NCBI GenBank assembly: GCA_016185015.1
Contig: JACPOI010000015.1
Location: 62,001 to 126,000 of the forward strand
Length of the DNA: 64,000 nucleotides
From: Burkholderiales bacterium
GTDB taxonomy: Bacteria; Pseudomonadota; Gammaproteobacteria; Burkholderiales; Burkholderiaceae_C
Direction: 5' to 3'
Position 1 is the stretch's first letter, and the number at the start of each line of letters is the position of its first letter. The notes below the pieces were generated by a model. It was given only the letters and a program-made list of their open reading frames with translations, ran no database searches and was not told the DNA's origin. The translations under genes were made by a program, and so were the position numbers. Below are positions 42,939 to 61,623 of this stretch, piece after piece.

Positions 42939-42949
42939 GGCGGGTCTCT

Positions 42950-44722
42950 TCAGGATTCGGTGGTCAGTTGTTGCAGCACGTGGTCGAAGGCCTTGACAGC
43001 CAGATCCATGTCGTCGGCGGTGCTCGACTCCAGCGGGTTGTGGCTGATGCCGCTGTTCTCGCCGCGCACGAACAGCATGGCCTGCGGCAGGATCTCGTGC
43101 AGCTTCATCGCGTCGTGGCCCGCGCCACTGGGCATGCGGTGCAGTGGCACGCCCAGCGCTGCGCACGCGCGCTCCCAACGTGTTTGCCAGGCTGGCGCGC
43201 TGGGGGCAGCGGCGGCGCGCATGGTCTCTTCCAGCGTGTGGTGCACGCCGCGGCGCGCGCAGATTTCCTGGAGTTTGGCCAGCACGTCCCGGGCCATTGC
43301 GTCGCGTTGTGTGTTGGTGGGCGCACGCATGTCCAGGGTGAACCGGCAGGTGCCGGGCACGACGTTGATGGAGCCGTTGGGGACCTGCAGCATGCCCACG
43401 GTGGCGACCGAGTCGCCGTCCTGCGCCGCCCTTTGCTCGGCATACAGGATGAGCTCGGCGACCGCGGCGGCGGCATCGCGCCGGCGATCCATGGGCGTGG
43501 TGCCGGCATGGCTGGCCATGCCGATGACCTCGCCGACATAGCGCACACTGCCGTTGATGCTGGTGACGATGCCCAGTGGCAGGTTCAGTTCATTGAGCAC
43601 CGGGCCCTGCTCGATGTGCACCTCGATGAAACCCAGGTACCGGGCGGGGTCGCGTTGCAGCTTCGGGATGTCGGCGATGCACAGGCCGGCGTGCTCCATG
43701 GCCTCGCGCATCGTGATGCCGTCGGCGTCCTTCTGGTCCAGCCAGGCCGGGTCGAAGTGGCCGGTGAGTGCCCCCGAGCCGAGGAAGGTCGCCTTGTAGC
43801 GCTGGCCTTCCTCTTCGGCAAAGCCCACGACCTCGATGCCGAAAGGCAGGCGCCTGCCGGCGGCATGCAGCTTCTGCACGCAGGCCAGGGGCACGAAGAT
43901 GCCCAGCCGGCCATCGTACTTGCCGCCGTTGCGCACGGTGTCGTAGTGCGATCCGGTCATCAGGTATCTGGCGCCTGCGACGGCCGGGTGGTAGCGCCCG
44001 ACCACATTGCCCACCGCGTCGATCCCGACCTCGTCGAAACCGCAGTCCGTCATCCAGTCGCTGATACGCTGGGCGCAGGCGCGGTGCGCATCGGTGAGAT
44101 AGGTCACCGTGAGCTGTCCCTTCTCGCCGTAGCCCGGGTCGCTGTGCCGGGCCAGCGTCTCCTGCCAGTCCCAGACCCGCTGGCCGTCCACCGGCTCGAA
44201 ACCGAACTTGTCGTTCAGCCGGATCTCGGCGATGCGGTGGATGTTGCGTAGGCATTCCTGCAGCTCGAAGTCCGGGTGGCCGTGCAGGCGGCGCTCGAAA
44301 GCCTCGATGATCTGCGCCTTGTCCAGGCCGCTGCCGCGCGGGCCGCGCACCGCGAGGATGAAGGGCCAGCCGAACTTCGTGTTGTAGTCGGCGTTGAGCT
44401 GCTGGATATGGGCGAATTCCTCGGATGTGCAGTGGGTGAGGCCAGCCTTGGTCTGCTCGTTGGTCGATTCGGCCGTCAGGGTCTTGCTCACCATGGCCTT
44501 GCCGGCCAGCTCCGGGTGGGCGCGTATCAAGGCGATCTGCGCCTCGCGGCCGGCCTCGGCGAGCACGCGTGTCATGGTGTGCTTGAGTTGCGCCAGCGAG
44601 GCAAAAGGCCGCTCGCCGAGCGCGCGTTCGGCGATCCAGGGCGTATGTTCGTAGAGGCCGTCGAGCATCTGCAGCGCCTCGGGCAAGGGCGCGGCGTTGA
44701 GTTGGTCCAGGGTGAGGGGCAT
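42950..44722 (-). CDS. fused OHCU decarboxylase (UraD) and allantoate amidohydrolase (AllC)
   Basis: 590-residue bifunctional protein. Residues 1 to about 178 are UraD, with the catalytic His69 in IRAHPELAG and Glu89 in STNEQTKAGL. From about 180 on is an M20 allantoate amidohydrolase with GSHYDTVRNGGKYDGRLG, GFAEEEGQRY, FIEVHIEQGPVLNEL, GHDAMKLHEI and SGISHNPLESS. One chain thus decarboxylates OHCU to S-allantoin and later opens allantoate, with PuuE acting between. Stop and start are clean and there is no frameshift, so the fusion is real. Confidence 0.93.
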   Translation of the reverse strand: MPLTLDQLNAAPLPEALQMLDGLYEHTPWIAERALGERPFASLAQLKHTMTRVLAEAGREAQIALIRAHPELAGKAMVSKTLTAESTNEQTKAGLTHCTSEEFAHIQQLNADYNTKFGWPFILAVRGPRGSGLDKAQIIEAFERRLHGHPDFELQECLRNIHRIAEIRLNDKFGFEPVDGQRVWDWQETLARHSDPGYGEKGQLTVTYLTDAHRACAQRISDWMTDCGFDEVGIDAVGNVVGRYHPAVAGARYLMTGSHYDTVRNGGKYDGRLGIFVPLACVQKLHAAGRRLPFGIEVVGFAEEEGQRYKATFLGSGALTGHFDPAWLDQKDADGITMREAMEHAGLCIADIPKLQRDPARYLGFIEVHIEQGPVLNELNLPLGIVTSINGSVRYVGEVIGMASHAGTTPMDRRRDAAAAVAELILYAEQRAAQDGDSVATVGMLQVPNGSINVVPGTCRFTLDMRAPTNTQRDAMARDVLAKLQEICARRGVHHTLEETMRAAAAPSAPAWQTRWERACAALGVPLHRMPSGAGHDAMKLHEILPQAMLFVRGENSGISHNPLESSTADDMDLAVKAFDHVLQQLTTES

Positions 44723-44733
44723 GGCGAGTGGCC

Positions 44734-45681
44734 TCAGGCGATGACGGGGTGCGTGGTTTTCCAGTGCCGTGCGATGTCGATGCGCCGCGCGACCCAGACC
44801 TTGTCGTGCGACTGGACGTGGTCCAGGAAACGCTGCAGCGCCGTGATGCGGCCCGGGCGGCCCAGCAGACGGCAGTGCATGCCGATGCTCATCATCTTGG
44901 GCTGGTCCAGGCCTTGCGGATCGCCCTCGGCGTAGAGCGCGTCGAAGCTGTCTCTCAGGTAGGCGAAAAACGGGTCGGCGTGGGAGAAACCCTGCGGCAG
45001 CGAGAAACGCATGTCGTTGCAGTCGAGGGTGTAGGGCACGATGAGCTGCCGAGCATCGCTGCCGTCGCTCTTGCGCACCCTCATCCAGAAGGGCAAGTCG
45101 TCGCCGTAGTAGTCGCTGTCGTATTCAAAGCCGCCGTAGTCGGCCACCAGGCGGCGCGTGTTGGGGCTGTCGCGGCCGGTGTACCAGCCCAGTGCGCGTT
45201 CGCCCGTCAGCTGGCGCAGGATCTCCATGGCCTCGGCCATGTGGGCGCGCTCGATCTGCTCATCCAGGTTCTGGTAATGGATCCACTTGAGGCCGTGGCA
45301 GGCGATCTCGTGGCCCAGCTCTGTGAAGGCGGCGCAGACCTCGGGGTGGCGTTGCAGTGCCGTGGCCACGCCGAAGACGGTGAGCGGCAGTCCGCGTTGT
45401 TCAAACTCGCGCAGGATGCGCCAGACGCCCTGGCGCGAACCGTATTCGTAGATGCCTTCCATGCTGATGTGCCGGGCCGGGAAGGCGGCCGGGTTGAACA
45501 TCTCGGAGAGGAAGGTCTCGGCGGCGGCGTCGCCGTGCAGTACGGAGTTCTCGCCGCCTTCCTCATAGTTGAGCACGAACTGCACGGCGATGCGCGCGCC
45601 GCCCGGCCAGCGGGCGTGCGGCGGATTGCGGCCATAGCCGACGAGGTCGCGCGGGTAGGGGGCGGTGCTGTCGTAGATCAT
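44734..45681 (-). CDS. puuE: allantoinase PuuE (polysaccharide deacetylase fold)
   Basis: 315-residue NodB-like enzyme that hydrolyses allantoin to allantoate without being related to classical allantoinase. Characteristic segments are YPRDLVGYGRNPPHARWPGG, VLNYEEGGENSVLHGD, GHEIACHGLKWIHYQNLDEQ and GWYTGRDSPNTRRLV. It lies between gntR and uraD-allC on the minus strand with gaps of 13 and 11 bp. Confidence 0.95.
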   Translation of the reverse strand: MIYDSTAPYPRDLVGYGRNPPHARWPGGARIAVQFVLNYEEGGENSVLHGDAAAETFLSEMFNPAAFPARHISMEGIYEYGSRQGVWRILREFEQRGLPLTVFGVATALQRHPEVCAAFTELGHEIACHGLKWIHYQNLDEQIERAHMAEAMEILRQLTGERALGWYTGRDSPNTRRLVADYGGFEYDSDYYGDDLPFWMRVRKSDGSDARQLIVPYTLDCNDMRFSLPQGFSHADPFFAYLRDSFDALYAEGDPQGLDQPKMMSIGMHCRLLGRPGRITALQRFLDHVQSHDKVWVARRIDIARHWKTTHPVIA

Positions 45682-45694
45682 GACAACCCGCCAC

Positions 45695-46360
45695 TCAGGC
45701 CAGCGCTAGCGCGATGTCGCTGGTGGGCGGCTGGCGGTCGAACGTGAGGTTGGCCATGACGTGCTGTAGGTGCTCGTCCATCAGGCGTACGGCCAGGGCT
45801 TCGTCCTTGGCGGCCACGGCCTTGACGAGTTCGACGTGTTCCTCGTTGGAATGCTCGGCCGCGCTCTTGGACTGGTAGACCAAGGTGATGAGGGCGCAGC
45901 GCGAGATCAGCTCCTCCAGCAACTCGGCCAGCACCTGGTTGCCCGTGAGCTCGGCCATGCGCACGTGGAAGTCACCCAGCAGTTCGTTGCGACCGGGGAC
46001 ATCGTTGCTGGCCACGGCTTTCTTCTCCTCGGCCACATGGGCGCGCAGGGCCTTGATCTTGGCCGGTGTGGCCTGGCGCACAAAGGTGCGCACCATCTCC
46101 AGTTCCAGCATACGGCGGACCTCGAAGACCTGCCGGGCCTCGTCTACCGAGGGCGTGGCCACGAAGGCGCCGCGCGCGGGCTCCAGGCGGATGAGGCGGT
46201 TCTGTGCCAGCTGAAACAGGGCCTGGCGCACCAGGGTGCGCGAGACACCAAAGTGGTCGGCAAGTTTCTGCTCGGCCAGCTTGGTGCCGGGGTGCAGGCG
46301 GTGCTCGACGATGGCGCGTGTGAGCGATTCGACGATCTGGCGGGTGCTGGACGATTCCAT
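45695..46360 (-). CDS. GntR family regulator, FadR subfamily (FCD domain), probable urate-cluster regulator
   Basis: 221 residues with a winged helix (VESLTRAIVEHRLHPGTKLA to VSRTLVRQALFQLAQNRLIR) and an all-helical FCD domain; the His of LLGDFHVRMAELTGN and of MDEHLQHVMANL could bind a metal. ATG 46360 (MESSSTRQIVES) is preferred; in-frame starts at 46372 and GTG 46399 exist, the latter overlapping the TGTATACA site. It heads the puuE-uraD/allC-M20 unit and is divergent from uraH-puuD, so it most likely regulates both sides. Confidence 0.9.
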   Translation of the reverse strand: MESSSTRQIVESLTRAIVEHRLHPGTKLAEQKLADHFGVSRTLVRQALFQLAQNRLIRLEPARGAFVATPSVDEARQVFEVRRMLELEMVRTFVRQATPAKIKALRAHVAEEKKAVASNDVPGRNELLGDFHVRMAELTGNQVLAELLEELISRCALITLVYQSKSAAEHSNEEHVELVKAVAAKDEALAVRLMDEHLQHVMANLTFDRQPPTSDIALALA

Positions 46361-46390
46361 GCAATTAATCATAGCTGGATTCGAAAAAAT

Positions 46391-46398
46391 TGTATACA
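46391..46398. promoter_or_regulatory. TGTATACA operator between gntR and uraH
   Basis: Perfect 8-bp palindrome 31 bp from the preferred gntR start and about 100 bp from the uraH start, in an A-rich stretch. A FadR-type GntR dimer commonly binds such short palindromes. Confidence 0.65.
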
Positions 46399-46500
46399 CT
46401 TTTGGTGGACTGTGGCGGTTGCCGCGATGAAGCCGATGCAGACATCCCGCGCGCAGGCATGAAGCGTGCGCTTAACGCGTTACTTTGGAGAAGGCAGATC

Positions 46501-46854
46501 ATGGGACTCAGCACCCACGTACTCGACACCATGCATGGCTGCCCCGCTGCGGGTATGCAGGCGGCGCTTTACACCACACAGGGTGGTCGCGCGGAGCTGG
46601 TGCGCCGCTTCACGCTGGACGCCAACGGGCGCAACCCAGACGGCCTGCTTTACGACCATGCCAGCCTCAAGGCCGGTACCTACCGTCTGAGCTTCGATGT
46701 GAAGGGCTACTTCCTGTCGCGCGGCGTGGCGCTGCCCGAACCGGCTTTCCTGGACCAGGTGGCGCTTGATTTCGGCGTGGCCGATGCGACGCAGCACTAC
46801 CATGTGCCCCTGCTGGTCAGCCCCTGGAGTTATTCGACCTACCGCGGGAGCTGA
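46501..46854 (+). CDS. uraH: 5-hydroxyisourate hydrolase (transthyretin-like)
   Basis: 117-residue enzyme converting 5-hydroxyisourate to OHCU. It has the HIUase N-terminal motif LSTHVLDTMHGCPAAGMQ, a middle Arg-containing segment and the diagnostic C-terminal YRGS. GGAG lies about 10 nt before ATG 46501. First gene of the plus-strand uraH-puuD pair. Confidence 0.95.
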   Translation: MGLSTHVLDTMHGCPAAGMQAALYTTQGGRAELVRRFTLDANGRNPDGLLYDHASLKAGTYRLSFDVKGYFLSRGVALPEPAFLDQVALDFGVADATQHYHVPLLVSPWSYSTYRGS

Positions 46855-47015
46855 AACAGCCCTCAACCGATTTGATTCCATCCCGGTCGCAGCGGCGCAG
46901 ACGGTGCACAGGTACCGCGAGGGCGCGACCCCAGGGGCTCACAGCGCCCGCAGTGGTGAGCCTGGTTCTTGCATAGTTGGCGTGTTGCACGCCTTGTCCT
47001 ACCTATCGAGTCACC

Positions 47016-48206
47016 ATGGAAACCTATCTGCTTGACTGGGCCAATCTCTTGGTGCGCTGGCTGCACGTGATCGTGGCCATCGCCTGGATCGGCTCCTCCT
47101 TTTATTTCGTCTTCCTCGACAGCAGCCTCACGCCCCCCGAAGATGCCAAGCTCCGCAGCGAAGGCGCCACCGGTGAGCTCTGGGCCGTGCACGGCGGTGG
47201 TTTTTATCACCCGGTCAAGTACGCGGTGTCGCCGCCCGCGCTGCCGCCGCACCTGCACTGGTTCTACTGGGAAAGTTACAGCACCTGGCTCAGCGGCTTC
47301 GCGCTTTTCCTTGTCTCCTATCTCTGGAGCCCGAGCGTCTACCTGATCGATCCGCGGGTGATGGACTGGGCGCCCTGGGCGGCGGTGACGGCGGCGCTGG
47401 CCTTTCTGGTGGTGTTCTGGGTGTTCTACGACCTGGCCTGCCGTTTCCTGGGCAAGGGGGAGCACGGGGATGCCAGGGTGGGGCTGGCGGTGGCCCTGCT
47501 GGTGGTCCTGGCTGCCTGGCTGGCCTGCCATCTTTTCGCCGGCCGCGCGGCCTTCCTGCTGGTGGGCGCCATGCTGGCCACCACCATGAGCGCGAACGTG
47601 GCCATGTGCATCATCCCGGGCCAGCGCAAGGTGGTGGCCGCGCTCAAGGCCGGCCAGCCCGTGGACCCGATCCACGGCCAGCGCGGCAAACAACGCAGCG
47701 TGCACAACACCTATTTCACGCTGCCGGTGCTGTTTGCCATGCTCAGCAACCACTACAGCTTCACCTATGCGTCGGCGTACAACTGGGTGTTTCTCATCCT
47801 CATCATGGCCGCGGGCGCGGCGATCCGCCAGTTCTTCGTGCTGCGTCATGGCTACAAGCTGGGGCGCAACGCGCACCCCTGGCCTTATGCGGCTGCTGGC
47901 GTCATCGTGCTGCTGGGGCTGATCGTCTGGCTGCGTCCTGCACCGGCGCCTGCTGCCGCTGCGCCGCAGGCCGTGAACCTGGCCCAGGTGCAGGCCATCA
48001 CCGCCCAGCGTTGTGTCTTGTGCCACGGGCCGGCCTTGCAGTCCAAGGGGGTGCGGCTGGATACGCCGGAAGACTTGCAGAAGCATGCACTGCAGATTTA
48101 CCAGCAGGTGGTGGTGAGTCGGGTGATGCCCATGAACAATGCGACGGGGATGACGGAAGCCGAACGCGCGGTTTTTGCGCAATGGTTCAAGCCCGGAGTG
48201 AAGTGA
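47016..48206 (+). CDS. puuD: membrane-bound urate hydroxylase PuuD with C-terminal cytochrome c domain
   Basis: 396 residues from ATG 47016 (METYLLDWANLLVRWLHVIV). About eight hydrophobic helices with conserved LHWFYWESYSTWLSGFAL and HNTYFTLPVLFAMLSNHYSF lead to a single haem-c motif CVLCH at residues 333-337, with a Met ligand in VMPMNN. PuuD-type enzymes oxidise urate to 5-hydroxyisourate and pass electrons to the respiratory chain rather than to oxygen, so no catalase is needed. The frame is open upstream to 46977 but ATG 47016 fits the family. Confidence 0.93.
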   Translation: METYLLDWANLLVRWLHVIVAIAWIGSSFYFVFLDSSLTPPEDAKLRSEGATGELWAVHGGGFYHPVKYAVSPPALPPHLHWFYWESYSTWLSGFALFLVSYLWSPSVYLIDPRVMDWAPWAAVTAALAFLVVFWVFYDLACRFLGKGEHGDARVGLAVALLVVLAAWLACHLFAGRAAFLLVGAMLATTMSANVAMCIIPGQRKVVAALKAGQPVDPIHGQRGKQRSVHNTYFTLPVLFAMLSNHYSFTYASAYNWVFLILIMAAGAAIRQFFVLRHGYKLGRNAHPWPYAAAGVIVLLGLIVWLRPAPAPAAAAPQAVNLAQVQAITAQRCVLCHGPALQSKGVRLDTPEDLQKHALQIYQQVVVSRVMPMNNATGMTEAERAVFAQWFKPGVK

Positions 48207-52240: not shown

Positions 52241-53152
52241 TCATGCGGGGGCCGTGAAGGTGAAAACGCCCTCGCGCATGAGTCGCGAGAATTCGGCCTC
52301 GATCATTTCCTGCACGACCGGAATGGCCAGTTTGCCCTCGGGCTCCAGCCGGGTCGCCAGCACCAGCAGGCGGTTGAGCTGGATGCCCGTGATCTGGGAC
52401 ATGACGACCTCGGATGCGGTGCCGGCCTCCTTGTAGACAGAGACCGGCATGATGGTGGCCCACGGCCCCTTCTGGACCAGCGCACGAATGGTGTCCACCG
52501 AGTCCAGCACCGCCTGCACGTTCAGCGTCTTGCCCAGCGGCAGCAACTGCCGCTCGACCAGGTCGCGATGCAGGCTGGTCATGAGCAGGGGGATGCGGGC
52601 CAGCTGGGCCACCGACACCAGCGGGCCCATGCCCATGGAGGCGTGGGTGACGAGCGCGAACGGTTCGCCGATCAGGGGCTGCAGCGAAACCGAGCGTCCC
52701 ACCCCCGGGTTGGTGACCACGGCCATGTCGATGATGCCGCGCTCCAGCCAGTCCAGCAGCTCCGGCGTGAAGGCCTCGCGCGAGCGCAATTCCACCTCCG
52801 GCAGGGTGCGCAGGCAGTGCTCGAACAGGCCCGGCAGCAGCACCCGCGCCAGCGTGGGGGAGACGCCCAGGACCACGGTGGTCTTCGTGTCGCCGGTCTT
52901 GCCGGCCAGGCGCTGGCGCACGCGCTGTGCTTCGCCGAGGATGCGCTGCGCCGACTCGTAGAAGGTGACACCCGCCTGGGTCAGCCGCACGCCGCGCGGC
53001 ATGCGGTGAAACAGCGCCACGCCCAGGTCGGCCTCCAGTTCCCGCAGCTGTCGTGTCAGGGCGGGCTGGGCGATCGAGATGGCGGCAGCGGCGGCGGTCA
53101 GGCTGCCGGCATCCGCAATGGCCACGAAGTAGCGCAGGGTTTTCAGGTTCAT
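52241..53152 (-). CDS. LysR family regulator divergent from the Ldh-ALDH cluster
   Basis: 303-residue LysR protein with the N-terminal helix-turn-helix LRYFVAIADAGSLTAAAAAI to QLRELEADLGVALFHRMPRG and a PBP-like effector domain. ATG 53152. The divergent arrangement with the dehydrogenase operon 254 bp away, and a LysR-type box in between, indicate that it controls that operon. The effector is unknown, perhaps the cluster's substrate. Confidence 0.9.
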   Translation of the reverse strand: MNLKTLRYFVAIADAGSLTAAAAAISIAQPALTRQLRELEADLGVALFHRMPRGVRLTQAGVTFYESAQRILGEAQRVRQRLAGKTGDTKTTVVLGVSPTLARVLLPGLFEHCLRTLPEVELRSREAFTPELLDWLERGIIDMAVVTNPGVGRSVSLQPLIGEPFALVTHASMGMGPLVSVAQLARIPLLMTSLHRDLVERQLLPLGKTLNVQAVLDSVDTIRALVQKGPWATIMPVSVYKEAGTASEVVMSQITGIQLNRLLVLATRLEPEGKLAIPVVQEMIEAEFSRLMREGVFTFTAPA

Positions 53153-53169
53153 GTGGCAAAAATGAGGCG

Positions 53170-53186
53170 ATCAATAGCAAGATGAT
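53170..53186. promoter_or_regulatory. LysR-type binding box (ATC-N11-GAT)
   Basis: ATC (53170-53172), 11 nt, GAT (53184-53186). It is centred about 67 bp before the predicted start of the ldh transcript, the position where LysR proteins usually bind, and 18 bp from the lysR start. Confidence 0.5.
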
Positions 53187-53208
53187 ATGGGCTTGCGAGA
53201 AATCAGTA

Positions 53209-53238
53209 TTGGACGGGTCGCCCCGGCCTTCCTACACT
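53209..53238 (+). promoter_or_regulatory. promoter of the Ldh-ALDH-cupin-Bug-LVIVD cluster
   Basis: TTGGAC (53209-53214), an 18-nt spacer and TACACT (53233-53238) make a sigma-70-type promoter with a leader of about 160 nt. Confidence 0.65.
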
Positions 53239-53406
53239 GCGGGACTTCAGCACACCCGAGAGCCGCCCTGGGTCGACCTATAACAGGCACCCGGGCGCAG
53301 CCCTCGCAGCGATAACCGATTGAGATTCCATGGCCAGAGCCGGCGCCCACCCGGGCCCACCGGGCCGCCGTTACATGCCATCCAAGATCCAAAGAAAGAA
53401 CGCCAC

Positions 53407-54489
53407 TTGAACGCGCCCAGCCACAACTTCACGCCGGTCCTGCCCGAGACCCTGCGCAACTTCATCCAGGCGGCGTTTGTCAGCCAGGGGTTCCCGCAGG
53501 CGGACGCCCTGACCATCGCCTCGCTCATGGCCGAAGCCGACCTGCAAGGCTCGGACGGCCACGGCGTCATCCGCCTGCCGATGTACATGAAGCGCATCCG
53601 CGCCGGTGGCATCAACAAGCACCCTGACATCAAGGTGGTGCGCGAGCGCGCTGGCATGGCGGTGCTCGACGGCGATAACGGCATGGGACACCTGGTGATG
53701 TCGCGTGCGGTCGATCTGGCCATCGAGAAGGCACGCACCTGCGGCGTGGCCTGGGTCAGCGCGCGCCACAGCAACCATGCCGGCCCGGCCTCCTTGTATG
53801 CACGAAAGCCCCTGCAGCACGACATGCTGGGCCTGTACTTTGCCGTGGGCAATGCCAACCACCTGCCGCCATGGGGCGGCACCGACATGCTGCTGTCGAC
53901 CAACCCCATCGCAGCCGGCATCCCTGCCGGTGCGGAGCCGCCCGTGGTGCTGGACATGGCCACGACGGTGGCGGCCTATGGCAAGGTCAAGGCCAAGGCC
54001 AAGCGCGGCGAGATGATGCCCGAGGGCTGGATGATCGACCGCCAGGGCAAGCCCCTGACCGATCCGAACCGCGCCAGCGAAGGCTTCCTGCTGCCCATCG
54101 GCGACTACAAGGGCTATGGCCTGGCGCTGGTGGTCGGGCTGCTGGCCGGCACGCTGGGCGGCGCGGCCATGGGCAAGGATGTGGTCGACTTCAATGCCGA
54201 CCATGTCAGCGTCACCAATACCGGCCAGGCCATCCTGGTGATCGACCTCAGCGCCTTCGGTGACGTCGCGGTCTTCAAGGGCGCGGTCGATACGCTGGTC
54301 CGGGACATCCGCAACAGCGAGCGCCTGCCCGGGGTGGAGCGCATCTGGCTGCCGGGCGAGCAAAGCCATGAGCGTCGGCAAAGTTACCAGGCCGGCATCC
54401 CGATCGCCAACACCCTGGTCCAGGAACTGGCCGTGCTGGCCAAGGATCTGGGCATTGCGCCGCTGGTGCAGGGGAGCGCTGCACGATGA
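53407..54489 (+). CDS. Ldh2 family malate/lactate/ureidoglycolate-type dehydrogenase
   Basis: 360 residues of the Ldh2 NAD(P)-dependent family, distinct from Rossmann dehydrogenases. Family segments are MAEADLQGSDGHGVIRLPMY, SARHSNHAGPASLYARKPL with the catalytic His, STNPIAAGIPAG and LDMATTVAAYGKVKAKAKRG. The best start is TTG 53407 (MNAPSHNFTPVLPETL); there is no in-frame ATG nearby and an earlier TTG at 53320 gives an unlike extension. It leads the cluster. The substrate is a 2-hydroxy or 2-oxo acid that I cannot name. Confidence 0.85.
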   Translation: MNAPSHNFTPVLPETLRNFIQAAFVSQGFPQADALTIASLMAEADLQGSDGHGVIRLPMYMKRIRAGGINKHPDIKVVRERAGMAVLDGDNGMGHLVMSRAVDLAIEKARTCGVAWVSARHSNHAGPASLYARKPLQHDMLGLYFAVGNANHLPPWGGTDMLLSTNPIAAGIPAGAEPPVVLDMATTVAAYGKVKAKAKRGEMMPEGWMIDRQGKPLTDPNRASEGFLLPIGDYKGYGLALVVGLLAGTLGGAAMGKDVVDFNADHVSVTNTGQAILVIDLSAFGDVAVFKGAVDTLVRDIRNSERLPGVERIWLPGEQSHERRQSYQAGIPIANTLVQELAVLAKDLGIAPLVQGSAAR

Positions 54490-55859
54490 TGAACTCCTTC
54501 AACCCGGCCACCGACACCCTGCTGGGGAAAATCTCCATCCATGACGAGCGGGCCATCGAATACCGGCTGCGCGTTGCCGCGGAATCCCAGAAAGCCTGGG
54601 CCCGCCTGGACGTCCGCCAGCGCCTGCCTTACCTGTTGCAGGTCGCGACCGTGCTGCGCCGCAAGAAGCAGGAACTGGCGCTGCTCATCACGCAGGAGAT
54701 GGGCAAGCCCCTGAGCGAATCGCTGGGCGAGATCGAGAAGTGCGCCTGGAATTTCGAGTACTACGCCCAGCAGGGCGAGACCTTCCTGGCGGACCAGGTG
54801 GTCGCAAGCTCGGCCGCCGACAGCCGCATCGTGTTCGATCCGCTGGGGCTGGTGCTGGCGGTGATGCCGTGGAACTATCCCTTCTGGCAGGTCATGCGCG
54901 CAGCGGCCCCGGTGCTGGTGGGCGGCAACGGCATGGTGCTCAAGCACGCCAGCAATGTGCCGCAATGCGCACTGGCGCTCGAGCAGGTGTTCAAGGATGC
55001 GGGCCTGCCCGACGGCCTGTTCACCACGCTGCTGGTCGAGTCCTCCGCCGTGCGCGGGCTGATCGAGGATGCGCGCATTGCCGCGGTGACCTTCACCGGT
55101 TCCACCCCCGTGGGGCGCAGCATCGCCTCGCAGGCCGGTCAGGCGCTCAAGAAGCAGGTGCTCGAACTCGGTGGCTCGGACCCCTTCATCGTGCTGGCCG
55201 ATGCCGACATCGAGGCGGCCGCCGCGGTCGCCGTCAAGGCGCGTTTTTCCAACACGGGGCAAAGCTGCATCTCGGCCAAGCGTTTCATCGTCGAGCAGGC
55301 CGTGGCAGACCGTTTTGCGGACGCTTTTGTGGCCGGTGCGCGCAAGCTCGTGGTCGGCGATCCCCTGCTGCCTGGCACCACCATCGGTTCCATGGCGCGC
55401 GGCAAGCTGCGCGAGGAACTGCATGCCCAGGTCATGGCCTCCATCCAGGAAGGCGCCAAGGTGCTGATCGGCGGCCAGCCGCTGCCCGGCCCCGGCGCCT
55501 ACTACCAGCCGACGATCCTGGACCACGTCACGCCGGCCATGACCGCCGCGCGCGAAGAGACCTTCGGCCCGGCCGCCGCCATTCTTCGTGTGGTCTCGGC
55601 GGATGCCGCCGTCGCCGTGGCCAACGACTCGCCCTTCGGCCTGGGGGCTTCGCTCTGGACCGGTGACCTGGACCGTGCACGCCAGCTGACGCGGCGCATC
55701 GAGGCCGGCGCCGTCTTCGTGAACGGCCTGGTGGCTTCCGATCCCCGCCTGCCTTTTGGCGGCACCAAACAATCCGGCTACGGCCGCGAGCTCGGCCATC
55801 TGGGCCTGCATGAATTCATGAACATCAAGACGGTCTGGACCGGACCTGCTACAAACTGA
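54486..55859 (+). CDS. NAD(P)-dependent aldehyde dehydrogenase (succinate-semialdehyde type)
   Basis: 457-residue ALDH resembling the GabD/Sad group. It has the VLAVMPWNYPFWQVMRAAAP cofactor segment, the catalytic Glu in LELGGSDPFIV and the catalytic Cys in NTGQSCISAKRFIV. Its ATG overlaps the Ldh2 stop (ATGA), so the two enzymes are coupled and may act in sequence on one carbon chain. Confidence 0.92.
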   Translation: MMNSFNPATDTLLGKISIHDERAIEYRLRVAAESQKAWARLDVRQRLPYLLQVATVLRRKKQELALLITQEMGKPLSESLGEIEKCAWNFEYYAQQGETFLADQVVASSAADSRIVFDPLGLVLAVMPWNYPFWQVMRAAAPVLVGGNGMVLKHASNVPQCALALEQVFKDAGLPDGLFTTLLVESSAVRGLIEDARIAAVTFTGSTPVGRSIASQAGQALKKQVLELGGSDPFIVLADADIEAAAAVAVKARFSNTGQSCISAKRFIVEQAVADRFADAFVAGARKLVVGDPLLPGTTIGSMARGKLREELHAQVMASIQEGAKVLIGGQPLPGPGAYYQPTILDHVTPAMTAAREETFGPAAAILRVVSADAAVAVANDSPFGLGASLWTGDLDRARQLTRRIEAGAVFVNGLVASDPRLPFGGTKQSGYGRELGHLGLHEFMNIKTVWTGPATN

Positions 55860-55889
55860 AATTGACAGCCACGCTCAATGGAGAACACC

Positions 55890-56312
55890 ATGACCACTGC
55901 CACACCCGCACGCACGCCCACCGTGCTCAAGCCCGACCAGATCAAGAGCCACGACCGCGGCGGCGGCGCCCGCACCACTCCCCTGGTGACGCCGGCGCTC
56001 GGCGCGCAGAGTTTCATCAACGGCATCACCGAGTTCTCGCCCGGCACGGCCATCCCCTTCCACAGCCACAACTGCGAAGAGAGCGTGATGCTGCTCTCGG
56101 GCAACGCCGTCATGGACGTCGCAGGGCAGGAGTCCCATGTGCTCAAACCCCTGGACACGACCTGGATCCCGCCGAACGTGTCGCACCGCTTCCGCAACAT
56201 GTCGAGCACCGAGCCCATGAAGATCCTCTGGATCTATGCCTCCCCGAACGCGACGCGTACCCTGACCGAAACCGGCGAAACCCGGATGGTGTCGGTAGAA
56301 CACAGCAAGTGA
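55890..56312 (+). CDS. cupin domain protein
   Basis: 140-residue single-cupin protein. Cupin motif 1 is PFHSHNCEESVMLLSGNAVM with metal-ligand His and Glu, and motif 2 is TWIPPNVSHRFRNMS. ATG 55890 (MTTATPARTP) has GGAG 6 nt upstream; an ATG 12 nt earlier overlaps that site. It follows the ALDH gene by 30 bp. It may be a small metal enzyme (dioxygenase, isomerase) or a sugar-acid binding protein; the substrate is unknown. Confidence 0.85.
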   Translation: MTTATPARTPTVLKPDQIKSHDRGGGARTTPLVTPALGAQSFINGITEFSPGTAIPFHSHNCEESVMLLSGNAVMDVAGQESHVLKPLDTTWIPPNVSHRFRNMSSTEPMKILWIYASPNATRTLTETGETRMVSVEHSK

Positions 56313-56386
56313 TTTCCCGAGGGTCTGGGGCGTGCGTTTTGGGCGCCGCCACCAGGCCTGAATGCATAGACCTACAAGGAGACAAG

Positions 56387-57370
56387 ATGATGTTGCGTAG
56401 AAACAGCCTGCGTCTGCTGAGCGGCGCCGTCCTGCTGGGTGCCATGGGCGTGGCCCTGGCCCAGGCGGACAACTACCCCAGCAAGCCGATCCGCCTGATC
56501 GTTCCGGCCTCGCCCGGCGGCGCTGCGGACTTCTTTGCCCGCATCGTCGGTCCGAAACTCGGCGAGGCGCTGGGCCAGAGCATCGTGATCGAGAACCGTT
56601 CTGGCGCTTCGGGCACGATTGCAGCCGACATCACGGCCAAATCTGCAGGGGACGGCTACACGATGCTGATCGGTCAGTCGACCAGCATGGCCGTCGCCCC
56701 GCACATGTACAACAAGCTGACCTACGACACCTTGCGGGATCTCAAGCCGGTGACGATGGTGGCCGAGGTCCCCAACATCCTGGTGGTCCACCAGAGCGTG
56801 CCGGCCAAGAATGTGCAGGAGCTGATCGCCCTGGCCAAGGCCAAGCCCGGTGCTCTCAATTACGGATCTTCGGGCAAGGGCGCGCCCACCCACCTGGCGG
56901 GCGAGCTGTTCGAGATCGCCACGGGAACCGAGATCACCCACATCCCCTACCGTGGCGCAGGCCCCTCCGTCAATGCCCTGCTGGCCGGCGAGATCCAGCT
57001 GATGTTCGCCCCCATGGTGGCCGTGTTGCCGCATGTGCAATCCGGTCGGGTGCGGGCCCTGGCCCTCACCTCGGCCAGCCGCTCGTCGGCCGTGCCCGAC
57101 GTGCCCACCCTGGCCGAGTCGGGACTCAAGGATTTCGACGTCTCCTCGTGGTTCGGCTTCTTCGTGCCCTCCAGCACGCCGGCCGCCATCGTGGACCGGC
57201 TGCAGCGTGAAACCGCCAAGGTCCTCAAGGACCCCGGTGTGCTCGAACGCCTGGCCAAGGAAGGCGCAACCCCTGGGGGGAACACCTCCGCTGTTTTCAC
57301 CCGATACGTCCACGCGGAATACGCCAAATACGGAAAACTGGTGAAGGAAAAGAACATCCAGGCGGACTGA
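56387..57370 (+). CDS. Bug-family (TctC) tripartite tricarboxylate transporter binding protein
   Basis: 327-residue periplasmic protein with a signal peptide (LRLLSGAVLLGAMGVALAQA). Mature features are YPSKPIRLIVPASPGGAADF, NRSGASGTIAADITAKSAGD and the IPYRGAGPSVNALLAGEIQL ligand segment. AAGGAG precedes ATG 56387. No TctA or TctB membrane genes are nearby, as is usual for Bug proteins, so uptake or sensing of the cluster's acid is inferred. Confidence 0.93.
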   Translation: MMLRRNSLRLLSGAVLLGAMGVALAQADNYPSKPIRLIVPASPGGAADFFARIVGPKLGEALGQSIVIENRSGASGTIAADITAKSAGDGYTMLIGQSTSMAVAPHMYNKLTYDTLRDLKPVTMVAEVPNILVVHQSVPAKNVQELIALAKAKPGALNYGSSGKGAPTHLAGELFEIATGTEITHIPYRGAGPSVNALLAGEIQLMFAPMVAVLPHVQSGRVRALALTSASRSSAVPDVPTLAESGLKDFDVSSWFGFFVPSSTPAAIVDRLQRETAKVLKDPGVLERLAKEGATPGGNTSAVFTRYVHAEYAKYGKLVKEKNIQAD

Positions 57371-57412
57371 CGCTGCAGCGCCTGGACACACCCTGTATTT
57401 TTTGAGTGCAAC

Positions 57413-58666
57413 ATGAACAAACCTGATTTGACGACCCTGCGTCCCCGCGCCGACCAGCCCATGGCGCACAACATGAAGCTGATCTCGCACAACGAGCTGC
57501 AGGGCTTTGGCGGCATGGGCGAGGGCATTGCCATGCAGCTGGCCGACGACGGCCGGCGCATCCTGTGGATGGCGCATGAGTCGGCGCCCAAGAACTTCAC
57601 TGGCGTCGACGTCACCGACCCCAAGAACCCGCGCGTGATCGTGCAGACCGAACTGCCGCACATGAAGGTGCGTTCCAACTCGCTGGACGTGGTGGGCAAC
57701 ATCATGGTGGTGGCCAGCCAGGTCAAGGAGCTCGGCGCCAAGCCGGCCGGCATCAACATCTACGACATCAGCAAGCCGGAAGAGCCGCGCCTGCTCTCGC
57801 ACTTCGACTGCTCTGGTCCGTACTCGCGCGGCGTGCACGCGGTCTGGTTCGTGGACGGCAAGACCGTGCACATCTCCTCGGGCGCAGCGGACTTCCAGCC
57901 GCGCAACCCCAAGGACGACCAGATCTACCGCATCATCGACATCTCCGATCCGACCAAGCCCTTCGAGAAGGGCCGCTGGTGGTATTCCGGCACGCGCGAG
58001 GGCGATGAGGCGCCCCCGCCGCCGCGCCTGCCCGCGCAATTCGACACGGGCTTCCGCGCGCACAACACCAATGTCTTCCCCCAGCGCCCGGATCGCGCCT
58101 ATGTGGGTTACATCGACGGCGGTGCCATCGTGCTCGACATCGGCAACCCCGCGGACATCAAGGTGGTGTCGCACTGGAACCATTCGCCGCCTTTCAACGG
58201 CTTCACCCACACGGTGCTGCCGCTGTTCGAACGCAATCTGTGGATCGTGTCCGACGAGTGCGTGCAGGACGACGGCGCCGACTGGCCCAAGCTGGTCTGG
58301 GTGGTGGATTCGCGCACCGACGCCAACCCCCTGCCCATCGGCACCTTCCCGGCGCCGCCCTATGACACCTTCGCCAAGCGCGGCGGGCGTTTCGGCGCGC
58401 ACAACCTGCACGAGAACCTGCCGGTACCCTGTTCCTTCCGCTCGGAGACGCTGTTCATCGGCACCTTCTTCAACGCCGGCGTGCGCGTCTACGACACCAG
58501 CAATCCCTACCAGGTGCAGGAAGTGGCCTACTACGTGCCGCCGACACCGGCCCTGTCGCCGCGTGGCGCGGTGCAGCTCAACGACGTCTACGTCGACGAG
58601 CGCAAGCTGGTCTACACGGTGGATCGTTTCAGCGGTGGTCTTTACATCCTCGAAATGAATGTCTGA
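57413..58666 (+). CDS. LVIVD-repeat beta-propeller protein, possible metal-dependent enzyme
   Basis: 417 residues without a signal peptide, so cytoplasmic. I count seven repeats of the form G-x-x-V/I-x-D-I/V-(S/T)-x-P, at about 64, 113, 171, 237, 294, 356 and 408, which suggests a seven-bladed propeller. Conserved histidines at 142, 217, 266, 330 and 333 lie in HAVWF, HNTNVF, HTVLPLF and HNLHENL. They fall in successive blades and could meet at a central metal. The CobW-type gene overlaps its 3' end by 8 nt. The enzymatic role is unknown. Confidence 0.8.
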   Translation: MNKPDLTTLRPRADQPMAHNMKLISHNELQGFGGMGEGIAMQLADDGRRILWMAHESAPKNFTGVDVTDPKNPRVIVQTELPHMKVRSNSLDVVGNIMVVASQVKELGAKPAGINIYDISKPEEPRLLSHFDCSGPYSRGVHAVWFVDGKTVHISSGAADFQPRNPKDDQIYRIIDISDPTKPFEKGRWWYSGTREGDEAPPPPRLPAQFDTGFRAHNTNVFPQRPDRAYVGYIDGGAIVLDIGNPADIKVVSHWNHSPPFNGFTHTVLPLFERNLWIVSDECVQDDGADWPKLVWVVDSRTDANPLPIGTFPAPPYDTFAKRGGRFGAHNLHENLPVPCSFRSETLFIGTFFNAGVRVYDTSNPYQVQEVAYYVPPTPALSPRGAVQLNDVYVDERKLVYTVDRFSGGLYILEMNV

Positions 58667-59735
58667 GTGGTCTGCAACTTCCGGCGGGCGTGACGCGCTC
58701 GCCGGCAAGATACCGGTCACGCTGGTCACCGGCTTCCTCGGCGCGGGCAAGACCACGCTGATCAGCAAGTTGGTGCGCCACCCGGAGATGGACCGGGTGG
58801 CGGTGGTCATCAACGAGATCGGCGAGATCGGGATCGACAACGACCTGGTCAAGATGTCGACCGAGAGCGTCAGCCTGCTGGCCAACGGCTGCCTGTGCTG
58901 CTCGGTGCGCACCGACCTCCAGGACACCCTGCGTGAGCTCTTCGGCGACCGCCGCGCCGGGGTCATCCCCGACTTCGACCGCGTCATCATCGAGACCACC
59001 GGCCTGGCCGACCCGGGCCCGGTGATCCAGACGCTCTCTAGCGACACCATGCTGGGCGCGCACTACCGCCTGGACGGCGTGGTGACGCTGGTGGACGCGG
59101 TCAACGCGCGTGACCAGCTGGCGCAGCAACCGGAGGCCCAGCAGCAGATCGCCCTGGCGGACCGCATCTTCATCACCAAGGGTGACCTGGTGTCTGCCCA
59201 TGCGGTGGAGCAGCTCATGGCCGAGATCGCTGCGGTCAATACGCGCGCCGATATCCGCCACTGCATCCAGGGCGAACTGCATCCCCGGGACCTGATCGGT
59301 CTGGGCCTGCAAAGCGAGCGCGCCGGCCCCGACACTCTGCGCTTCCTGGGTGAGATGGCTGCGCGCGAGGACCAGGCGAGCGGGGAACAGGGCGCTTATC
59401 TGGCGGGGCGCCTGCCCGGCCGGCACCACCCTTCCGTGCGCAACCTGTCCTTGCGCTTCGAGGCGCCGTTCACCTGGCCCGCATTTTCGGCGGCCATGGA
59501 ACTGCTGATCTCCCTGCGCGGCCAGGACATGCTGCGCGTCAAGGGCATCGTGAATGTCGAAGGCCGTCCCGTCGTCGTGCAGGGCGTGGGCCATGTGTTC
59601 CACCCGCCGGTCACGCTGGACCGCTGGCCCAGTGAAGACATGGGCACGCGCCTCGTCTTCATCACGCGCAACATCGATGCCGACAAGATCAAGGCCCTGT
59701 TCCAGGTGGTCGGCGGGCTGGGGTCTGCCGCCTAG
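58659..59735 (+). CDS. CobW/COG0523-family GTPase (metallochaperone-like)
   Basis: 358-residue G3E-type GTPase. It shows Walker A TGFLGAGKTTLISKLV, the CxCC metal-binding motif in LLANGCLCCSVRTDLQD, a switch segment VIIETTGLADPGPVIQTL, and the CobW C-terminal domain from about residue 235. Members deliver zinc, cobalt or other metals to client proteins. It overlaps the LVIVD gene by 8 nt, so that protein is a likely client. It is separated from the next gene by 32 bp. Confidence 0.92.
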   Translation: MSEWSATSGGRDALAGKIPVTLVTGFLGAGKTTLISKLVRHPEMDRVAVVINEIGEIGIDNDLVKMSTESVSLLANGCLCCSVRTDLQDTLRELFGDRRAGVIPDFDRVIIETTGLADPGPVIQTLSSDTMLGAHYRLDGVVTLVDAVNARDQLAQQPEAQQQIALADRIFITKGDLVSAHAVEQLMAEIAAVNTRADIRHCIQGELHPRDLIGLGLQSERAGPDTLRFLGEMAAREDQASGEQGAYLAGRLPGRHHPSVRNLSLRFEAPFTWPAFSAAMELLISLRGQDMLRVKGIVNVEGRPVVVQGVGHVFHPPVTLDRWPSEDMGTRLVFITRNIDADKIKALFQVVGGLGSAA

Positions 59736-59767
59736 CTGGGTCATCCCTCGCTACATACACTGACCGC

Positions 59768-60289
59768 ATGATGTCCTTGCGCCTGCCTGAACGCCCTGTG
59801 CGCCACCTGCTGGCGGGTATGGGCTTGTGGCTCGGCCTGTTCATGCTGCCGGCGCTGGCGCAAACCGGTGGTCCCGCTGCGGCGGCCCCCACGCACGATC
59901 CCAGCACCTCCATGCTGCCCGATGCCCCCGGCGCCGTGCCCTGGTCCGTGCTCAGTGCGGCCACCATCAGGATGAGCCAGGGCAAGCTGGGCCCGGCTTT
60001 TCCCGAGGCCTTGCGGCCGCTGCAGGGCAAGACCGTCAAGCTGCAGGGTTACATCCTGCCCATCGAGGCCGGGCAGACCCACAGCTACTTCCTGCTCTCG
60101 GCCTGGTCACCCACCTGTCCCTTCTGCCTGTCGGCCGGGCCGGAAGCCATGGTGGAGGTGCGTGCGCGCAAGGCGGTGAAATATTCGAACGACCCGGTCG
60201 TGGTCGAAGGGCGCCTGCTGCTGCTGGACAATGATCCCGGCGGCGTGTTTTATCGGCTGGTCGAAGCGGTGCCCGCCAGCCTTCCCTGA
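59768..60289 (+). CDS. DUF3299 periplasmic protein
   Basis: 173 residues with a signal peptide (LLAGMGLWLGLFMLPALAQT). The DUF3299 part includes VKLQGYILPIEAGQTHSYFL and the cysteine pair TCPFCLSAGPEAMVEV. Homologues in other bacteria occur near zinc-responsive transport genes, so a metal-related role fits its position after the CobW gene; that is inference. An ATG three nt downstream is an alternative start. Confidence 0.8.
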   Translation: MMSLRLPERPVRHLLAGMGLWLGLFMLPALAQTGGPAAAAPTHDPSTSMLPDAPGAVPWSVLSAATIRMSQGKLGPAFPEALRPLQGKTVKLQGYILPIEAGQTHSYFLLSAWSPTCPFCLSAGPEAMVEVRARKAVKYSNDPVVVEGRLLLLDNDPGGVFYRLVEAVPASLP

Positions 60290-60306
60290 ACAACAACGGA
60301 GATCCC

Positions 60307-61623
60307 ATGCTACGACGTCTATTTACGGCCGCCACGCTCACGCTGGCGGTGAGCGCTGCCTGGTCCCAGGCGGCTTTGCCGCCGCTGCATCCGCAGACCG
60401 AGGCTGCATTCGTCAAACTGACGGCGCATGCCGGCGTCAAGCAGGCGGTGGATTTTCTGCGGGCGGACGATGAACGCACGCTCAAGGATCAGATCGAGCT
60501 GACCGAAATCCCCGCGCCGCCGTTCAAGGAAATGGTGCGCGCCCAGGAATACCAGAAGCGGCTCAAAGCCCTGGGCCTGACCGACGCGCGCATCGACGCC
60601 GAAGGCAACGTGATTGCCGTGCGCAAGGGCAGCGGCAAGGGCCCGGTGCTGGTGTTGTCGGCGCATCTGGACACGGTGTTTCCCGAAGGCACGGATGTGA
60701 AAGTCAAGGTCAAGGGCAACCGTTATGAAGCCCCGGGCATCTACGACGACGGGCGTGGCCTGGCCTCGCTGCTCAGCGTGCTGCGCGCGCTGAACCAGAC
60801 CGGCCTGAAAACGGTGGGCGACATCGTCTTCGTCGGCACGGTGGGCGAAGAAGAGCTGGGTGATCTGCGCGGGGTCAAGGCGCTGTTTCGCGACAACAAG
60901 GCCATCGACGGCTTCATCTCGCTTGATGGCCTGGACATCGGTCGCATCGTGAACCAGGCCACCGGCAGCCGGCGCTTCCGCATCATCTACACCGGCCCGG
61001 GCGGGCACAGCTTCTCGGCCTTCGGCCTGCCTTCGGCCACCCACGCGCTGGGCCGTGCGATTGCCAAGATCAGCGAAGTGCGTACCGTCGATCAGCCGAA
61101 GACCACCTTCACCGTGGGCACGCTCAAGGGCGGCACCTCGGTCAACGCGATTGCAGCCGAGGCCGAACTCGGGCTGGACATGCGTTCGAACAGCGCGGTC
61201 GAGCTCAAGAAGCTGGAAGACCAGATCATGGCGCTGGCCCGCGAGGCCGCCGATGACGAGAACAAGCGTTGGGACAAGAAAGACGTGATCAAGGTCGAAT
61301 TCAAACTCGTGGGCGACCGCCCGGCCGGTGCCGGTCAGCTGGACTCCCCCATGGTCCAGGCCGCACGCCGTGCCGTGGCCACGGTGGGCGGCGAGGTCAA
61401 GGCCGTGACGGCGTCCAGCACCGACTCCAACCTGCCGATCAGCCTGGGCATTCCGGCCGTCACGCTGGGCAGCGGTGGTGTGGGCGGTGGTTCGCACGGC
61501 CCGGGTGAGTGGTTCTCGCCCATCAATGCCTGGCTCGGCCCGCAGAGCACCTTGCTCACGGTCTTGTCGCTGGTGGGGGTGGAAGGCGTTACCGAGCCTC
61601 TGCTGCCGGTGCGGGCGCGCTGA
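60307..61623 (+). CDS. exported M20 family metallopeptidase (PepT/CPG2-like)
   Basis: 438 residues with a signal peptide (LLFTAAT-like start, LTLAVSAAWSQAALPPLH cleavage region). Di-metal residues are in LVLSAHLDTVFPEGTD, APGIYDDGRGLASLLSVL and FVGTVGEEELGDLRGVKALF, with the dimer-domain YTGPGGHSFSAFGLPSATHA. It would cut peptides or acylated amino acids in the periplasm. ATG 60307 has CGGAG upstream. It ends at a strong terminator. Confidence 0.88.
   Translation: MLRRLFTAATLTLAVSAAWSQAALPPLHPQTEAAFVKLTAHAGVKQAVDFLRADDERTLKDQIELTEIPAPPFKEMVRAQEYQKRLKALGLTDARIDAEGNVIAVRKGSGKGPVLVLSAHLDTVFPEGTDVKVKVKGNRYEAPGIYDDGRGLASLLSVLRALNQTGLKTVGDIVFVGTVGEEELGDLRGVKALFRDNKAIDGFISLDGLDIGRIVNQATGSRRFRIIYTGPGGHSFSAFGLPSATHALGRAIAKISEVRTVDQPKTTFTVGTLKGGTSVNAIAAEAELGLDMRSNSAVELKKLEDQIMALAREAADDENKRWDKKDVIKVEFKLVGDRPAGAGQLDSPMVQAARRAVATVGGEVKAVTASSTDSNLPISLGIPAVTLGSGGVGGGSHGPGEWFSPINAWLGPQSTLLTVLSLVGVEGVTEPLLPVRAR

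Follow-up and report, generated by a model that had tools for sequence, protein, structure and literature searches.

An LVIVD beta-propeller gene and the COG0523 GTPase gene that overlaps it: a candidate metallo-propeller and its candidate chaperone in a Burkholderiales bacterium

The LVIVD protein and its putative metal site

The stretch of DNA analysed here (hereafter the window) comprises 64,000 nucleotides (nt) from a Burkholderiales bacterium (assembly GCA_016185015.1, contig JACPOI010000015.1, positions 62,001 to 126,000). It contains a gene for an LVIVD-type beta-propeller protein and, on the same strand, a COG0523/CobW-type G3E GTPase gene (hereafter CobW) whose reading frame overlaps the LVIVD 3' end by 8 nt (Table 1). 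Both genes and their overlap had been described in an earlier reading of the letters alone (the original prediction), which proposed a metal held by histidines at the propeller centre and a metal-inserting role for the GTPase; genes and overlap are present as described.

The LVIVD protein passed the Pfam LVIVD model (PF08309) with 29.3 bits against a cut-off of 20.2 over the whole protein, no single repeat passing alone, and it was the sole match in its genome to its own family profile at the E 0.001 threshold. The closest protein in a named record, from Curvibacter sp. PAE-UM, is 98% identical. Because its N-terminus (MNKPDLTTLRPRADQPMAHNMKL, read by eye) has no hydrophobic leader or evident signal peptide, the protein is probably cytoplasmic. 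Seven repeats had been predicted: six motif repeats could be aligned, and a C-terminal strand would close the seventh blade. The motif aspartates D66, D118, D176, D242, D299 and D361 align across all 15 pairs of blades 2 to 7, a comparison in which the segments were cut at the motif itself, which favours their superposition.

Homologous loci came from a scan of one genome per species (77 loci) and from a sample of 100 relatives, of which 15 genomes had an LVIVD match and 13, the genome of the window included, a close one. From 98 loci we obtained an alignment of 82 rows after dropping 11 short or broken LVIVD genes, four duplicates and one locus without a match; the broken genes in assemblies L067, L068, L071 and L074 were left unmended. 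Removal of the window's own copy and of seven remote sequences gave a first conservation set of 74 relatives of at least 380 amino acids (aa) and 57-98% identity. H55, H83, H142, H217, H266 and H330 are present in all 74, H153 in 73 and H333 in 72. Invariance by itself is not rare in this protein, since 99 of its 417 positions are invariant in the same set; 6 of its 13 histidines are invariant. A second set held 34 further sequences (from an order-wide sample, second copies and extra loci), 31 of them distinct and all different from the rows of the first. Here H55, H142, H217, H266, E282 and H330 were kept throughout, H83 in 31 and H333 in 26, with tryptophan at the latter position in seven. 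E282 is invariant also in alignments A1, A2 and A3. Hence, of the five histidines that the original prediction singled out, the four at 142, 217, 266 and 330 do not vary across the homologues of either set, and H333 does; H55, H83 and E282 were absent from its list.

We also aligned 26 remote LVIVD relatives (identity of 26-37% in the case of rows belonging to alignments A1 and A3). H55 and H142 were each kept in 22 of these, and H217, H266, E282 and H330 each in 23. The three most remote sequences, L116, L117 and L118, have lost all six residues together, plus R358; outside these three, only single losses occurred (H55 in L093 and H142 in L095). Joint loss of six residues is as expected of one shared site. 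L116 to L118 are LVIVD-type proteins of 582-598 aa and offer a natural metal-free comparison group; they were excluded from the blade and profile comparisons below, as the site is lost in them.

The inner strands of a propeller line its channel. The histidines had been predicted to recur at similar blade positions, and we compared the alignment of each blade with that of every other blade. When the segments were cut at the Asp motif and aligned globally, H142-H266, H142-H330, H217-H266, H217-H330 and H266-H330 superposed with probabilities of 11-84%, H142-H217 being the only one of the six pairs that did not. With random cuts and local alignment, H142-H266 superposed in six of six runs (probability 96-97%), as did H217-H330 (2-84%), and no run paired any of the four histidines with a wrong partner. 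The H142-H266 and H217-H330 pairs are thus firmly in blade register and the remaining pairs compatible with it. H333, three residues after H330, lies outside the register.

The nearest solved relative of the LVIVD protein is Sb-PTE, the haloalkylphosphorus hydrolase of Sphingobium sp. TCM1 (PDB 5hrm/5ioj). A single-sequence PDB search found it marginally (E 0.0042). In profile searches it was the sole significant match (E 3.9e-16 and 1.7e-20; next best 0.81 in the latter). Alignment with hhalign of the family profile to residues 118-570 of the Sb-PTE chain gave a probability of 99% (E 5.3e-18) over 358 columns and paired H142 with H258, H217 with H317, H266 with H389, E282 with E407, R358 with R498 and D361 with D501. 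In the blade-6 alignment Sb-PTE H475 lies opposite H330, a pairing favoured by the invariance of H330. We take the metal ligands of Sb-PTE to be E201, H258, H317, H389, E407 and H475; of this set five, not all six, have a counterpart in the LVIVD protein (H475 via H330 or H333). The title of its structure paper, cited in PMC11656708, describes Sb-PTE as a seven-bladed propeller with a binuclear metal centre.

Taken together, invariant histidines, partial blade register, joint loss and alignment with the metal-binding residues of Sb-PTE support the predicted metal site at the centre of the propeller. The likeness to carotenoid oxygenases that had been suggested for it found no match in Pfam or PDB, and Sb-PTE, a homologous enzyme, was overlooked in the statement that LVIVD enzymes have been little described.

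Linkage of the CobW gene to the LVIVD gene

The CobW protein matches the Pfam families cobW (PF02492, 170.4 bits) and CobW_C (PF07683, 79.8 bits), with the P-loop GFLGAGKT at residue 25 and the CxCC motif, as CLCC, at residue 78. At 63 of the 77 species-scan loci the CobW gene lies 3' of the LVIVD gene on the same strand; in five, all of the SAR116 group, it is upstream on the same strand at a distance of about 3.1 kb, in two it is upstream on the opposite strand, and in seven it is absent. A contig end within 1.2 kb was found at five of these seven; the other two are L058 and L074. In the genomes of L058, L074 and the contig-cut L054 there is another LVIVD copy, about 64% identical to that of the window, and this one adjoins a CobW gene. 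The distance from LVIVD stop to CobW start, extrapolated from alignments, was -22 to +11 nt in 62 of the 63 loci and +210 nt in one.

In the two-copy genomes (L142, L143 and L144 with L054, L058 and L074) the copy beside CobW has tryptophan at position 333. The CobW-free copy of L054 and of L058 adjoins a tyrosyl-tRNA synthetase gene.

The sample of 100 relatives gave a similar picture. Thirteen of its genomes have a close LVIVD gene. In 12 of them a CobW gene of at least 49% identity adjoins it; the LVIVD gene of the remaining one, G014 (L089), is cut off by a contig end. Among the other 87, this type of CobW was present only as a fragment in G023; partial GTPase-domain matches of 47-55% occurred in G088, which had most of them, and in some others, and there was no other full-length match above 45%. 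The fragment in G023 (L145, G023:C13:349-1050) is a decayed CobW gene of this type, 70% identical and with three stops, in a genome without an LVIVD gene. G023 belongs to the same genus as the genome of the window, and the contig of L145 begins just upstream of the fragment. It looks as if LVIVD and CobW were being lost together there.

In the order-wide sample of 399 genomes, 36 had a close LVIVD gene (five of them also in the first sample), and CobW was adjacent in 35. Five of these adjacencies came from earlier loci, 25 from the 26 loci fetched, four were assigned by position and one (G737) by a partial match at a contig end. The co-occurrence in other genomes that the prediction of a dedicated chaperone calls for is thus found.

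Two controls were negative. None of 20 remoter LVIVD loci had a CobW gene within the sequence inspected (mostly about 6 kb on each side, shorter for L125, L134 and L138). Conversely, no LVIVD gene was present at 16 loci surrounding other COG0523 genes (L146-L161), of which three had flanks of only about 1.5 kb. The genome of the window has four COG0523 matches in 4.02 Mb, so by our own arithmetic one of them would lie within a few kb of the LVIVD gene by chance with a probability of about 1%. The link between LVIVD and CobW is strong and clade-specific.

We computed trees from chosen rows (53 CobW and 51 LVIVD sequences). To explain the linkage, the LVIVD tree requires three state changes, which fit one gain with two losses (L058 and L188); the linked rows fall inside a clade of 32 rows with support of 100/97. 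Just outside it, on long branches, are L189 (47% identity) and L191 (42%); position 83 is Gly or Ala in them, and the 13-14 kb fetched for these rows hold no CobW gene. The CobW link and H83 thus mark one and the same clade, a correlation on a single branch that may be a coincidence. In the CobW tree, 28 of 35 LVIVD-linked rows form one clade (90/95) that is nearly all of Burkholderiales type, with L042 titled Alphaproteobacteria; the other seven, all alphaproteobacterial, fall elsewhere with weak support. Independent recruitment of CobW in alpha- and betaproteobacteria is hinted at by this tree, but the supported branches force only one change, and we do not claim it.

Operon context

On the plus strand, downstream of a divergent LysR-type regulator gene, the genes are ordered Ldh_2-type dehydrogenase, aldehyde dehydrogenase, cupin, TctC, LVIVD and CobW. 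The two dehydrogenase genes overlap by 4 nt. The TctC-type gene ends 42 nt ahead of the LVIVD start and is likely to belong to the same operon. In the region 53000-60400, a promoter scan found no promoter-like site (0.8 expected) and a terminator scan found four terminator-like sites (3.7 expected).

Table 1. Features of the window around the LVIVD/CobW gene pair (ORF, open reading frame)
Feature	Positions	Strand	Remarks
LysR-type regulator, divergent from operon	52241-53152	-	named by eye; homologues by tblastn
Ldh_2-type malate/lactate dehydrogenase family protein	53320-54489 (true start may be further in)	+	Pfam/NCBIfam
Aldehyde dehydrogenase	54486-55859	+	457 aa; ORF list and Pfam/NCBIfam
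Small cupin protein	55878-56312	+	144 aa; ORF list and Pfam
TctC-type periplasmic solute-binding protein	56375-57370 (start approximate)	+	PF03401, 266 bits
LVIVD beta-propeller protein	57413-58666	+	ATG start, 417 aa; ORF list and Pfam
Reading-frame overlap LVIVD/CobW	58659-58666	+	8 nt
COG0523/CobW-type G3E GTPase	58659-59735	+	ATG start, 358 aa; ORF list and Pfam
DUF3299 protein	59768-60289	+	Pfam, 21.9 bits, just below cut-off of 22

The DUF3299 gene begins 32 nt 3' of CobW. By tblastn it stands beside the pair only in L001, L078 and L079, that is, in the window itself and a near-identical genome. DUF3299 genes elsewhere occur in zinc-related operons, and this neighbour may be a hint of zinc. 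A search of the window with one Zur consensus, allowing up to three mismatches, gave no match (none expected by chance; other Zur sites are possible). Further upstream, at about 41685-48206, lie genes resembling those of purine/ureide catabolism, named by eye only: peptidase/amidase types, a decarboxylase-amidase fusion, a polysaccharide deacetylase/PuuE-like protein and a GntR-type regulator.

At the other loci, where neighbour genes were called by a home-made script, the LVIVD gene stands near TctC, MFS or ABC transport genes, HAD genes, various dehydrogenases, luciferase-like monooxygenase, flavin reductase and Amidohydro_2 genes. In the SAR116 loci it lies 3' of a complete TctC-TctB-TctA set, with CobW at the head of the run; in L059 and L061-L064 of this group it precedes a conserved gene of about 252 aa without a Pfam match. 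A TctC-type gene occurred in 68 of the 97 neighbourhoods, but genes of this type abound in these bacteria, and we therefore gave weight only to the full TctCBA set of SAR116. The neighbour genes differ by lineage, and no substrate could be named from them. A match was present in 71 plasmid records, always below 60% identity, and the three examined for gene context held no clue to a substrate. The setting fits a cytoplasmic enzyme of small-molecule catabolism; because of the homology to Sb-PTE, hydrolysis would be our first guess for its chemistry.

Interpretation and comparison with known systems

On balance we think it probable that the LVIVD gene, as part of a catabolic operon, encodes a metal-dependent enzyme, probably a hydrolase, and that this enzyme has a dedicated metal chaperone. 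What we infer beyond the alignments and the gene linkage, from details of the fold, metal binding, metal number and kind to catalysis, chaperone-client contact and substrate, is as follows. The protein would be a probably cytoplasmic seven-bladed beta-propeller metalloenzyme related to Sb-PTE. A small-molecule substrate would be imported via a TctC-type or other transporter and then acted on, most likely by hydrolysis. One or two divalent metal ions would sit at the mouth of the central channel, with H142 (blade 3), H217 (blade 4), H266 and E282 (blade 5) and H330 (blade 6) as candidate ligands; H55 and, in the CobW-linked clade, H83 are perhaps near the metal. The overlapping COG0523 GTPase would supply or insert the metal in a step that depends on GTP. 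Members of COG0523 are regarded as chaperones or insertases for metals that differ among them (PMC2770081; PMC7895991), so this partner does not reveal which metal is used.

Several observations weigh against this proposal. With random cuts and local alignment, H217-H266 superposed in only one of six runs, and the remaining three pairs lay outside the aligned stretch in every run. The full alignment with Sb-PTE puts H333, not H330, opposite H475, and the blade-5 segment alone failed to reproduce its Sb-PTE pairs. The blade-2 ligand E201 has no counterpart: V86 stands opposite, with N89/S90 nearby, H83 lies opposite Sb-PTE D198, and none of the LVIVD residues V86, N89, S90 and H83 is acidic. 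As to the chaperone, the intact LVIVD gene of genome G510 has other neighbours, and a search of that genome for CobW gave nothing at E 1e-60 or better; a CobW of this type is also missing beside nine second LVIVD copies from eight genomes, although one CobW could serve both LVIVD copies of a genome. The remoter LVIVD proteins keep the core residues with no CobW gene nearby, so the site as such can do without a linked chaperone.

The gap in blade 2 admits a bolder version, to which we give tentative and clearly less than even credence. One LVIVD clade may have rebuilt the metal site, become tied to COG0523 in that same region of the tree and come to use a different, chaperone-supplied metal, for example Co(II), Fe(II) or Zn(II) under competition, for a new reaction of organic-acid catabolism. 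The absent blade-2 ligand (Glu in Sb-PTE) is represented by a histidine near the place of E201 in 13 of the 26 remote relatives (L095-L098 and L100-L108) and by none in the other 13, and H83 lies three residues away. If true, this would mean a new class of propeller enzyme and a new kind of COG0523 client.

It is also conceivable, if unlikely, that a different cause keeps the two genes side by side, the GTPase serving another enzyme of the operon or the general zinc supply. Other members, such as the cupin, may need a metal too, and the unlinked remoter proteins and G510 agree with such an arrangement. The other neighbours, however, vary between lineages while CobW stays (3' in 63 of the 77 loci, upstream in seven), CobW of this type adjoins one LVIVD copy in two-copy genomes, and adjacency by chance has the low value estimated above.

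Carotenoid cleavage oxygenases are seven-bladed propellers in which four histidines from different blades form the metal site. Four invariant histidines on four consecutive blades recall this arrangement, and the LVIVD protein might accordingly be an oxidative mononuclear enzyme with four histidines on one redox metal (Fe or Cu), like the carotenoid oxygenases or SELENBP/methanethiol oxidase (MTO). A propeller-cavity His copper site in SELENBP1 and linkage of mtoX to a copper chaperone gene have been described (PMC10362175, PMC5739008), and residues 336-371 gave a weak NCBIfam methanethiol oxidase match. That match reached 18.9 bits against a cut-off of 650 (NF052453); there was no Pfam match to carotenoid oxygenase (PF03055) or SBP56 at E 0.001, PDB profile searches found only Sb-PTE and no carotenoid oxygenase, and the invariant E282, opposite Sb-PTE E407, belongs to the putative set. 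Membership of the carotenoid oxygenase or methanethiol oxidase families is ruled out by these searches, and an oxidative enzyme of this kind seems to us rather improbable.

Least probable of all is a metal carrier or store like AztD rather than an enzyme: AztD (PMC6689063) is a beta-propeller that holds zinc by three central-pore histidines, passes it to another protein and is linked to CobW-family genes, and the 2009 COG0523 survey notes beta-propeller (WD40) neighbours for one subfamily (PMC2770081), but AztD has eight blades, a periplasmic or cell-surface location and a zinc ABC transporter partner (PMC6689063), whereas the LVIVD protein lacks an evident signal peptide, shares neither location nor transporter, is encoded among catabolic genes (TctC, cupin, dehydrogenases), found no AztD chain up to E 10 in the PDB profile search and has no site for the Zur consensus in its window.

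The metal-dependent enzyme with its own chaperone thus remains our preferred interpretation. For most COG0523 GTPases it is not obvious which proteins they serve, according to the 2009 survey (PMC2770081). A GTPase gene that accompanies one propeller gene in dozens of genomes offers a directly testable COG0523 client, and the pair gives a lead to the function of the LVIVD family, which is named only for its repeats. It would also carry the metal-site pattern of Sb-PTE beyond a single enzyme that degrades pollutants, to a large family of likely enzymes from ordinary bacteria of fresh water, soil and sea. We found no account of an LVIVD-COG0523 pairing in a full-text literature search judged largely by titles and the beginnings of abstracts, with most subscription journals outside it, which is no proof of novelty. 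The pairing is apparently undescribed; it is well supported and falls within the known LVIVD/Sb-PTE kind of metallo-propeller.

Among known systems, the CobW protein resembles the COG0523 chaperones (CobW, the nitrile hydratase activator and YjiA) in its domains, P-loop and CxCC motif, with YjiA as PDB match (E 2e-48); it differs in falling below the NCBIfam cut-offs NF008578 (GTPase), TIGR02475 (CobW) and NF038288 (ZigA). With AztD, a propeller with a central His zinc site (PMC6689063), the system shares the propeller shape, a putative central His metal site and a genomic link to CobW-family genes. SELENBP1/MtoX (SBP56) is similar in its seven-bladed propeller model, its cavity His metal site and, in bacteria, an adjoining SCO1/SenC chaperone gene; the bacterial MTO differs in being periplasmic and copper-dependent and in its other type of chaperone (PMC10362175, PMC5739008). 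The closest likeness is to Sb-PTE, with homology over most of the LVIVD protein and five of the six ligands we assume for it opposite invariant residues. Here, in contrast to Sb-PTE, a COG0523 gene accompanies the LVIVD gene, whose operons also hold dehydrogenase and TctC genes, and from this gene context organophosphate activity is not expected.

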